Part shown: positions 7,987 through 10,492 of the stretch, in pieces
Layout: each line of letters begins with the position of its first letter
How positions within the stretch are numbered: the stretch's first letter is position 1
Assembly: GCA_012961055.1 (NCBI GenBank)
Contig: DUAA01000093.1
Location: 20,299-34,574, forward strand
Direction: 5' to 3'
Source: Nitrospinaceae bacterium
Lineage (GTDB): Bacteria; Nitrospinota; Nitrospinia; Nitrospinales; VA-1
Length of the DNA: 14,276 nt
The notes under the pieces: generated by a model
The model's database searches: none
Told to the model about the DNA's origin: nothing
What the model saw: only the letters and a program-made list of their open reading frames with translations
Position numbers and translations under genes: made by a program

Positions 7987-8571
7987 ATGTCTGAGAATGA
8001 ACAACCAAAAGAAGCCGAAAAAACCATCTACGAACGGGATAAAACGGCGAAAGAACCCAAGCCTGCAGCGGATGGTCCTATAGCCCCTATCAAACCCAAA
8101 CCTAAAATCAAAAAAGCTTTTGTCGCGAAAAAAAAGACCTTCACTACCGACAAACCTATGGAACATCGTGTGAGAAACATTCGCATGACTTCTTTAGAGT
8201 CTTCCAAAATGATATGGGAAACTATTGTCGATTACCAGAAGGACCTGGCTCAAATGGAAGTCGATGATCCGGACAAGCCATATCATGACTGGGAAAAGGT
8301 TGAAAAATTCTTCACCCGTTTCGCGAAAAAATATAGTGTCTGCGTGAGTAAGGCGTTAGGTGGCTCATTAGGTTGGGTTCACAAGGAAATCAATACAGCT
8401 TCGGAAACCATGAATCAGGAGTTGATCGATATCATAATGAAAACGGATAAGTTCAAGATACCCAAACCCATCAAAACAAAATTGGGCTTCCATATCATCA
8501 TGATATGCGAAAGCCAGATTCATATTCCTAAAGAGAAAGTCAAAGACGAAGAAAAACCCTTTTATTTTTGA
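7987..8571 (+). CDS. Lys/Pro-rich protein with a diverged parvulin (PpiC-type rotamase) domain
   Basis: The C-terminal part, about residues 60-176, follows the parvulin peptidyl-prolyl isomerase pattern. HRVRNIRMTSLESSKMI corresponds to the usual VRHILV...EEA strand and helix. FAKKYSVCVSKALGGSLGW (112-130) corresponds to FAK-YS-C-S--GGDLGW, and IPKPIKTKLGFHIIMICE (158-175) to the closing strands. The Cys at 119 and the His at 169 of the active site are kept. The first active-site His (HILV) is Asn64 here, so activity may be weak or lost. Residues 1-55 are rich in Lys, Pro and Glu and probably disordered. There is no signal peptide or membrane segment, unlike SurA or PrsA, so a cytoplasmic location is inferred. 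No Shine-Dalgarno sequence precedes the ATG. It converges with the next gene, 12 bases away. Confidence 0.7.
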   Translation: MSENEQPKEAEKTIYERDKTAKEPKPAADGPIAPIKPKPKIKKAFVAKKKTFTTDKPMEHRVRNIRMTSLESSKMIWETIVDYQKDLAQMEVDDPDKPYHDWEKVEKFFTRFAKKYSVCVSKALGGSLGWVHKEINTASETMNQELIDIIMKTDKFKIPKPIKTKLGFHIIMICESQIHIPKEKVKDEEKPFYF

Positions 8572-8583
8572 CCCGTATCAGAT

Positions 8584-10086
8584 TTACTCTCCCAGAAAAA
8601 ATTGATGGATCATGTTGACAACATATTCCATCTGGCTTTTGCTTATCTCATGAGATATCGGAAGCGCCAGGGTCTCTCTGGCGGCTTTTTCTGCCGCAGG
8701 GAAGTCACCCAATTTGTAACCTAAGGGCTTGAAACATTCTTGAATATGTAACGGAACGGGATAATAAATTTCGCACCCAATTTTGTTTTCGTTGAGAAAA
8801 GTTCTAAGTTCATCCCTGCGATTTCCTGCACAGATGACATATTGGTTATAAACGTGACGGGGAAATACTTCAGGAGGCAGTTGGACAAATGGGGTCATTG
8901 CTGAATCTTTAAAAAGTTGATTATACGTTTCTGCATTTCCCCTTCTTTTCTCAGTCCAACCTTCAAGAAAATTCAGCTTTGCACTCACCACACCCGCCTG
9001 TAGCGCATCCAGGCGAAAATTTCCTCCTATTACTTTATGGTAATACTTTGGTTCCGAGCCATGCACTCTGAGAACCTTTAATTGATCGTAAAGTTCCTCG
9101 GAATTGGTGGTCACCATCCCTCCATCACCAAAACTGCCCAGGTTTTTCGCTGGGAAAAACGAGAAACAGCCCAAATCTCCCATCGAGCCTGCGGGTCTTC
9201 CCTTGTACTCAGAGCCAATCGCCTGTGCAGCATCTTCAATCACCCGCAAGCCATGCTCCTCAGCTAGTTGCAGGATAGGGTCCATATCTGCACATTGTCC
9301 ATACAGGTGCACCGGAATTATGGCTTTGGTCTTCGAGGTAATACAACGTTCAATATGTTCAGGTTTAATGTTAAAAGTAATATCATTAATATCTGCAAAA
9401 ACCGGTTTGGCACCAACCCGTATAATAGAACCCGCAGTCGCAAAAAATGTATACGGAGAGGTGATCACCTCATCACCAGGTCCGACCCCTGACGCCATAA
9501 GTGCAATCAGTAATGCATCGGTTCCGGATGAAACTCCAACAGCATATTTGGCCTGGCAATAAGAAGCTATCCTCTCTTCCATCTCCGCAACTTTTGGACC
9601 CAGAATAAAATATCCCGATCGAATCGTTTCTGCCGTCTCCTTTTCCACTGCATTCAAAATCTCGTGGTACGAAGCAGTGATATCCAACAAACGAACTTCT
9701 TTGACTGGCGCAGGAGGGGCATCCAGTTTTTTCTGTAACTCCCCGGGAGCTAGAATCTGAACCGGCAAGCCGGAAAATTTTTCAGGAGTGAGTGTGACCA
9801 CTGCATCTAATCCACTTGTATCCACCAAACGAGCCAGCAACTCTACTTCAAATGGTTTTTCAGCTTCCAGAGCAATATCGATATCATGAGCCGTGGGAGT
9901 CATGACAGCCAAAACGCGCAAAAGAGACTGAACATCTCGGTTTTTCGCATTCTCCAAAATGGCAGGCACAGATGTGGATGCAACCCAACCCTTACAAGTT
10001 TCCTGACGACACAAGTTCAACACGGCTGAATTTTGGAGATCCTCCAGTGCCTGAACTAAACAGCCCGTATCGAATAAAATCTGCAT
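8584..10086 (-). CDS. PIN-like domain fused to DegT/DnrJ/EryC1-type sugar aminotransferase
   Basis: Residues about 131-500 are a complete PLP-dependent nucleotide-sugar aminotransferase, close in pattern to the WbpE/WlbC group. Motifs are GVSSGTDAL (184-192), TSPYTFFATAG (209-219), PVHLYGQCADMDP (258-270), EDAAQAIG (284-291) and SFFPAKNLGSFGDGG (309-323), with Lys314 the expected PLP Schiff-base lysine, plus NFRLDALQA (356-364) and VPLHIQ (444-449). Such enzymes aminate keto-sugars for surface glycans. Residues 1-120 look like a PIN domain: ILFDTGCLVQAL (3-14), STSVPAILE (37-45), PFEVELLARL (78-87), GLDAVVT (92-98), VQILAPGEL (109-117). Of the PIN acidic residues, Asp6, Glu45 and Asp94 appear kept, but the DFEDA-like motif is PFEVE and DTN is DTG, so nuclease activity is doubtful. 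A Pro-rich linker (121-130) joins them. The frame is continuous from the ATG. Confidence 0.85.
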   Translation of the reverse strand: MQILFDTGCLVQALEDLQNSAVLNLCRQETCKGWVASTSVPAILENAKNRDVQSLLRVLAVMTPTAHDIDIALEAEKPFEVELLARLVDTSGLDAVVTLTPEKFSGLPVQILAPGELQKKLDAPPAPVKEVRLLDITASYHEILNAVEKETAETIRSGYFILGPKVAEMEERIASYCQAKYAVGVSSGTDALLIALMASGVGPGDEVITSPYTFFATAGSIIRVGAKPVFADINDITFNIKPEHIERCITSKTKAIIPVHLYGQCADMDPILQLAEEHGLRVIEDAAQAIGSEYKGRPAGSMGDLGCFSFFPAKNLGSFGDGGMVTTNSEELYDQLKVLRVHGSEPKYYHKVIGGNFRLDALQAGVVSAKLNFLEGWTEKRRGNAETYNQLFKDSAMTPFVQLPPEVFPRHVYNQYVICAGNRRDELRTFLNENKIGCEIYYPVPLHIQECFKPLGYKLGDFPAAEKAARETLALPISHEISKSQMEYVVNMIHQFFLGE

Positions 10087-10118: not shown

Positions 10119-10400
10119 TTAAAACTGGATATCCTGACCTAGCTTTTCACGAAGGATGATCTCTGCTGGGGTGTAATACTTTTTATTCACATTGCATTTC
10201 TTACATGCAGGCACCAAATTCCCGCGCTTACTTTTCCCACCTCGGGAAATAGGAACAATATGGTCCATAGTCAATTCTTCAGCGGTATATCGACCACCAC
10301 AATAGTGACACGCACCCGCATGAATTTTTGTTTTCCACCACTGTGACTGGCGGAGCTTTCGGGCCTTGGCTTTCTCAACTTTAAAACTTTCTTGATCCAT
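10119..10400 (-). CDS. Small HNH endonuclease-family protein
   Basis: The protein has 93 residues and is almost entirely one HNH (beta-beta-alpha metal) domain. CHYC (31-34) and CKKC (66-69) form the zinc-binding pair. LTMDHIVPISRGG (43-55) supplies the catalytic Asp46-His47, and Asn61 (GNLVPAC) and Asn70 complete the HNH set. The N-terminus is a charged helix (KVEKAKARKLRQSQWW). Such small HNH proteins occur both as mobile-element nucleases and as stable chromosomal genes; nothing here shows a phage or intron context. I start at the ATG at 10400, with a GGGG stretch about 10 bases upstream, rather than the in-frame GTG at 10415. It lies 32 bases upstream of the PIN-aminotransferase gene on the same strand, so they may be cotranscribed. 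The biological target is unknown. Confidence 0.85.
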   Translation of the reverse strand: MDQESFKVEKAKARKLRQSQWWKTKIHAGACHYCGGRYTAEELTMDHIVPISRGGKSKRGNLVPACKKCNVNKKYYTPAEIILREKLGQDIQF

Positions 10401-10492
10401 AATGACAAACCCCACCGTAAGCAGATGGAGTAACCTAATAAAATGTTATTTAAAAAAATGTGACAGGGAAATAAAACCCACTTCTGAGATTA

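Follow-up and report, generated by a model that had tools for sequence, protein, structure and literature searches.

A PIN-like domain with an incomplete nuclease site is fused to a DegT-type sugar aminotransferase across an order of Nitrospinota

One gene in the window (i.e. the whole stretch of 14,276 nucleotides analyzed here) encodes a two-domain protein in which a PIN-like domain that lacks the complete acidic set of a nuclease is joined to a DegT-type sugar aminotransferase, and this fusion is spread across one order of the Nitrospinota. The gene lies at 8584..10086 on the minus strand and is complete (500 amino acids and a stop). A sequence-only reading had reported an uninterrupted 500-codon frame here; it is present at exactly these positions, on the minus strand (the plus strand of 8584–10086 holds many stops), and it contains all the motifs listed at the time (FDTG, STSVPAILE, PFEVELLARL, GLDAVVT, and VQILAPGEL). 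Residues 1–124 (9715..10086, minus strand) make up the predicted PIN domain, as indicated by a structural model, fold searches, a profile match, and counts of acidic positions. They are followed by a Pro-rich linker visible in the sequence (residues 125–131; 9694..9714, minus strand), near which the matches of unfused relatives start, and by a sugar aminotransferase of the DegT/DnrJ/EryC1/StrS family (residues 132–500; 8587..9693, minus strand). The model of the full-length 500-residue protein is not confident (pLDDT 62).

We propose that a dead nuclease domain derived from PIN_3 acts as an accessory module on a UDP-sugar 3-aminotransferase that works for the envelope, an explanation to which, as a whole, we give an even chance. 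Specifically, the N-terminal 124 residues would be a PIN domain that descends from the PIN_3 (VapC-like) toxins and no longer has a nuclease site, and the C-terminal ~370 residues a PLP-dependent UDP-sugar 3-aminotransferase. Its substrate would most likely be a nucleotide sugar of the 3-keto-GlcNAc type, supplied by a GnnA-like Gfo/Idh 3-dehydrogenase that the lpx cluster encodes, and its product would most likely be UDP-GlcNAc3N for the cell envelope. The PIN part would be a noncatalytic accessory module whose former catalytic pocket now carries a different group of conserved polar residues (positions 6, 8, Trp34, Asp/Glu68, and Asp94); this group would probably bind a ligand or partner and position or regulate the aminotransferase. 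We infer the substrate, the accessory role, and the single pocket shared by the polar residues as probable. Such a protein would offer an order-wide case of a toxin-type PIN domain that has become a noncatalytic part of an apparent envelope enzyme, and because stand-alone toxin relatives and unfused enzyme relatives are both known, the domestication of a toxin fold can be tested residue by residue.

A search with residues 1–135 returned 31 proteins of 498–503 amino acids, the window's own included, all of which span the entire N-terminus; the other 30 are 57–90% identical over this region, and the two with an organism name belong to Nitrospinaceae and Nitrospina. A second database search found 39 fused proteins, with the 40th match being a 607-amino acid protein that has other domains and no fusion. 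Among 77 genomes of the phylum, a single-sequence search detects the domain in 44, and a profile built from 27 divergent N-termini raises this to 48, i.e. 48 of the 64 genomes in the window's order and none of the 13 outside it. One match runs through both domains in a single frame in 47 of these 48 genomes, while in G056 the contig ends inside the gene. An assembly error or misjoin is ruled out because the joined frame recurs in 47 genomes and in the 31 and 39 database proteins; the fused architecture claimed earlier is genuine. The available parts of the literature searched, including PMC5644692, PMC10622841, and PMC8195603, hold no mention of a PIN–DegT fusion.

The domain is missing from 16 genomes of the order (G023, five g4, one g5, eight g7, and one g9, the last 59% complete), and 10 of these (six g4/g5 and four g7) encode an unfused aminotransferase in frames of 379–406 codons. 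From 573 confirmed relatives, 80 loci were kept, 64 of them from outside the order, and in none of these 64 does an open frame longer than 60 codons precede the aminotransferase match (L071 lies at a contig edge and is uninformative). In trees of the aminotransferase half, 29 fused rows and four unfused g7 rows form one clade (support 0.994, and 97 in a second tree). In the quick tree the fused label has to change twice, and grouping all fused rows in one clade is not rejected (p-AU 0.613); the g7 relatives may have lost the domain or may never have had it. Rows from g4/g5 fall outside foreign relatives in one tree and beside the fused clade in the other (support 90). We propose that the fusion became fixed at or near the root of this one order. 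A stand-alone version of the fused subfamily was also sought among candidates of ~70–220 amino acids and rejected: the three profile matches sit on contigs of 924, 1519, and 715 bases, two of them continue into the start of an aminotransferase, and the third (93 amino acids) ends inside the PIN part.

The model of residues 1–126 is confident (pLDDT 92.5), and fold searches with it recover the alpha/beta/alpha topology of PIN domains. Both SMG5 and Utp23 are among its structural matches, and in the VIA structural list a few of the 50 listed matches lack a PIN label (e.g. RohQ cyclodehydratase and a Cas9 complex). SMG5 and Utp23 contain eukaryotic PIN domains said to be inactive, and inactive PIN domains of this kind serve as binding modules; these two act in RNA decay and ribosome assembly, whereas the present domain is joined to a sugar enzyme. 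A fold search with the full-length model shows no match to the N-terminus among the 50 matches listed, because aminotransferase matches occupied them.

At the sequence level, no PIN model of Pfam or NCBIfam recognizes residues 1–124 of the window, where the only Pfam row is a chance-level DUF1480 (E 0.19), and PIN_3 (PF13470) is not matched in the window at all. PIN_3 does appear in 5 of the 27 divergent N-termini (best E 0.0025), each time under the Pfam cut-off, with the best relative scoring 19.0 bits against 27. The N-terminus profile, run against PHROGs and against the sequences of solved structures, produced rows that resemble chance matches, including VapC2 of Rickettsia felis (E 0.57). 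The 27-row profile matches a stand-alone PIN_3 protein in genome G022 (E 2.3e-10), and hhalign aligns the two over 129 columns (E 9.5e-11). Together, the fold, the divergent PIN_3-like relatives, and this profile match to a true PIN_3 protein bear out the PIN-like domain of the sequence-only reading.

The domain shares with the VapC-like PIN_3 toxins the order of its elements and a full-length profile match, including an end near T-P-x-E-F-L. Toxins of this family found beside DUF6364 are stand-alone proteins of ~140 amino acids that have an upstream partner gene and intact acidic motifs; by contrast, the present PIN domain is fused, has no such partner gene, and has lost its acids. For example, the stand-alone gene of G022 (L187:173–895; G022:C10) adjoins a DUF6364 antitoxin-like gene, and the same genome also carries the fusion. 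Each of the five stand-alone relatives inspected in detail has a small upstream gene, which in four of them scores above the Pfam cut-off as DUF6364 and in one is DUF2281-like but below the cut-off; these relatives retain DTN or DAN, D-(F/L)-E-D, and TRN-x-KDF. Among nine ordinary PIN_3 proteins encoded by these genomes, two Asp residues never vary, the first one and one later in the sequence.

With the stand-alone protein of G022 as reference for the acidic slots, the acidic metal-binding set of a PIN nuclease or VapC toxin is complete in none of the 27 divergent N-termini. The slot of the first catalytic Asp (position 6) holds His in 20 rows, Asp in 4, Asn in 2, and Glu in 1; Asp stands in the slot of the DTN Asn in 21, the last Asp of D-L-E-D is Asp in 6 and Glu in another 6, and the T-x-N slot is Asp or Asn in 7. 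The partial loss noticed earlier in the window is real, with PFEVE (residues 78–82; 9841..9855, minus strand) aligned to the D-(F/L)-E-D of stand-alone relatives and DTG to their DTN, and it is more thorough in the relatives, given the His at position 6.

The window itself retains Asp6 (codon 10069..10071, minus strand, placed from aligned rows), rows of its genus have Asp or Glu at this position, and Glu80 is also present. Both residues would speak for a nuclease still active in the window's genus, yet in the window Val occupies the third Asp slot and Thr the T-x-N/D slot, and there is no row among the 27 in which Asp6, the Asp of L-E-D, and the T-x-N/D slot are all retained, which makes this reading extremely improbable. 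As expected from the sequence-only reading, no antitoxin-like gene adjoins the fused gene. At the 29 fused loci drawn (a 30th, L162, was dropped as its contig ends in the gene), in which frames of at least 90 codons were taken in, no small antitoxin gene lies beside it; the neighbor is an HNH-endonuclease-like gene in the window (10119..10415, minus strand, upstream, from Pfam scan and locus comparison) and a sugar-dehydrogenase-type gene in 14 loci. The HNH-like gene holds this upstream place in all 8 drawn loci of the two nearest genera and in none of the other 21. The site residues, and the absence of a partner gene among the frames drawn, led us to reject an active toxin.

The domain is nevertheless under purifying selection. 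The N-terminus has a median dN/dS of 0.20 and the aminotransferase half one of 0.068 (24 genomes of the two nearest genera; 85 of the 276 pairs, those with dS<1.5), i.e. the N-terminal domain evolves about three times faster. When its 130 columns are ranked by entropy, Trp34 is first (invariant in 27 of 27 rows), Asp94 ninth, and positions 8, 6, and 68 are 11th, 12th, and 13th, with Asp or Glu at position 68 in every row; hydrophobic and backbone positions are also among the top ranks, as expected for any fold. The faster evolution, and the fact that g7 relatives manage without the domain, would fit a mere tail that serves structure or solubility, persists by inertia, and binds neither a ligand nor a partner. 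We regard such a tail as unlikely, because Trp34 is invariant and several polar positions stay conserved among N-termini as low as 17% identical to that of the window. Alternatively, as in the RNA-dependent control raised by the sequence-only reading, the domain may bind RNA without cutting it and make the aminotransferase respond to an RNA signal or to its own transcript. Related PIN proteins act on RNA and positions 6 and 8 are conserved, but no result of this analysis speaks specially for RNA, the six remaining acid or Asn slots rank only 85, 91, 99, 112, 119, and 121 of 130, and we find this version very unlikely. Considering the loss of the acidic set, the conserved polar positions, and the low dN/dS, the PIN domain has most likely been kept for a role other than RNA cutting.

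The assignment of the second half to the DegT sugar aminotransferases of the WbpE/QdtB class holds. Residues 148–493 match Pfam DegT_DnrJ_EryC1 (PF01041) at 400.7 bits (E 8e-120; cut-off 19.8), the sole Pfam match above cut-off, and Lys314 (9145..9147, minus strand), which we take from its known role in the family to be the PLP-binding lysine named earlier, is invariant in 31 aligned rows, one of them the window's own protein. The whole domain and this lysine are shared with the sugar 3-aminotransferases WbpE, QdtB, and GnnB. Among the nearest solved sequences are an Archaeoglobus sugar transaminase, QdtB, DesV (2oga), and WbpE, and unfused relatives ~60% identical occur in Desulfobacterales. 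The PseC model (TIGR03588) scores 254.5 against a cut-off of 423.5, and the other NCBIfam aminotransferase models stay under their own cut-offs among the best 25 of 46 rows.

Evidence on the substrate comes from gene content. In the window's genome, the lpx cluster reads fabZ, lpxA, Gfo/Idh, lpxI, and lpxB, with FabZ, LpxA, and LpxB above their own cut-offs and LpxI below. The best model for the Gfo/Idh protein is UDP-GlcNAc 3-dehydrogenase, at 229.8 bits, which does not reach the NCBIfam cut-off of 450. This gnnA-like gene (L248:7956–8921; G000:C239 in the window's genome) lies between lpxA and lpxI in all seven genomes examined, the window's included, and its protein has a match at E<=1e-30 in 69 of 77 genomes, among them 45 of the 48 that carry the fusion. 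GnnA oxidizes UDP-GlcNAc and GnnB then transaminates it, which yields the UDP-GlcNAc3N used for lipid A; the gnnA and gnnB genes of Mesorhizobium loti lie apart from each other and from lpx (PMC5644692). Two genomes that are 97% complete (G031 and G019) have the fused protein as their single DegT match, together with the gnnA-like gene and no strong WbpB–D orthologue. Because of the lpx-cluster gene and the content of these two genomes we favor a role like that of GnnB, although the enzyme may act like WbpE in lineages where genes of that pathway are available. The fused protein would then be a candidate for the GnnB that partners the lpx-cluster dehydrogenase of Nitrospinota. The PIN part is dispensable in some genomes, since g4/g5 genomes have the gnnA-like gene without the fusion and g7 genomes have an unfused orthologue.

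The alternative, possible though tentative, is that the aminotransferase half is WbpE-like, acting on UDP-3-keto-GlcNAcA in the UDP-GlcNAc3NAcA/UDP-ManNAc3NAcA pathway of a surface polysaccharide, with the PIN part docking it to pathway partners. The sugar-dehydrogenase-type gene at 14 of 29 fused loci is of the NDP-sugar 6-dehydrogenase type (assigned from one scanned representative of the cluster, TIGR03026 above cut-off), lies immediately upstream on the same strand, and in 4 loci directly follows a WbpB–WbpD-like gene that joins Gfo/Idh and hexapeptide-acetyltransferase parts; WbpE is also among the near solved structures. This context resembles the WbpA-B-E-D-I gene set and pathway steps described in PMC10622841, and in some lineages the placement beside WbpA-like and WbpB/WbpD-like genes favors a glucuronate substrate there. 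However, a strong orthologue of the WbpB–D-like protein (E<=1e-120) is found in 22 of the 64 order genomes, only 18 of the 48 with the fusion, and 3 of 16 in the window's genus; weaker matches occur in all 64, and the window's genome (74% complete) has only weak Gfo/Idh matches, with no strong orthologue found. Genes for a WecB-type epimerase, rmlA, rmlB, and rmlD also lie near some fused loci. At L159:4245–5783, a Gfo/Idh dehydrogenase is fused to a hexapeptide acetyltransferase, apparently placing two amino-sugar pathway steps in one protein, and a dehydrogenase–acetyltransferase gene at G056:C61:1859–3403 has an in-frame stop.

The fusion is not strictly restricted to the order. In G081, a record titled Deltaproteobacteria bacterium, the N-terminus profile finds a match (E 3.4e-14; hhalign E 4.5e-12) that continues into a DegT domain (L255:1171–2900; G081:C49). 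Its N-terminus has the altered start N-x-D and a Trp near the place of Trp34, as in the fused family. The aminotransferase part belongs to another DegT branch and is interrupted, as judged by eye, by ~200 bases of inserted DNA; its readable piece (131 amino acids) is 53.7% identical to a G009 paralogue and at most 46.9% to the fused clade, which suggests a second fusion or an exchange of partners. In a bolder and quite unlikely version of our explanation, the PIN domain of a toxin–antitoxin system would have been domesticated to sense a ligand and to control the synthesis of envelope amino sugars allosterically. The dead pocket, refitted with His6/Asp8/Trp34 in most lineages, would bind a nucleotide, a nucleotide sugar, or RNA and switch the first committed transamination on the way to lipid A or a surface polysaccharide, and a deltaproteobacterium would have evolved this pairing a second time from a different DegT branch. 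When 395 genomes of G081's phylum were searched with a single sequence, only G081 had the fusion, and the four other matches lay in frames of 138–147 amino acids.

Elsewhere in the window, positions 7987–8571 hold a short gene for a parvulin-type PPIase whose N-terminus is long and charged and which matches only part of the Rotamase profile.
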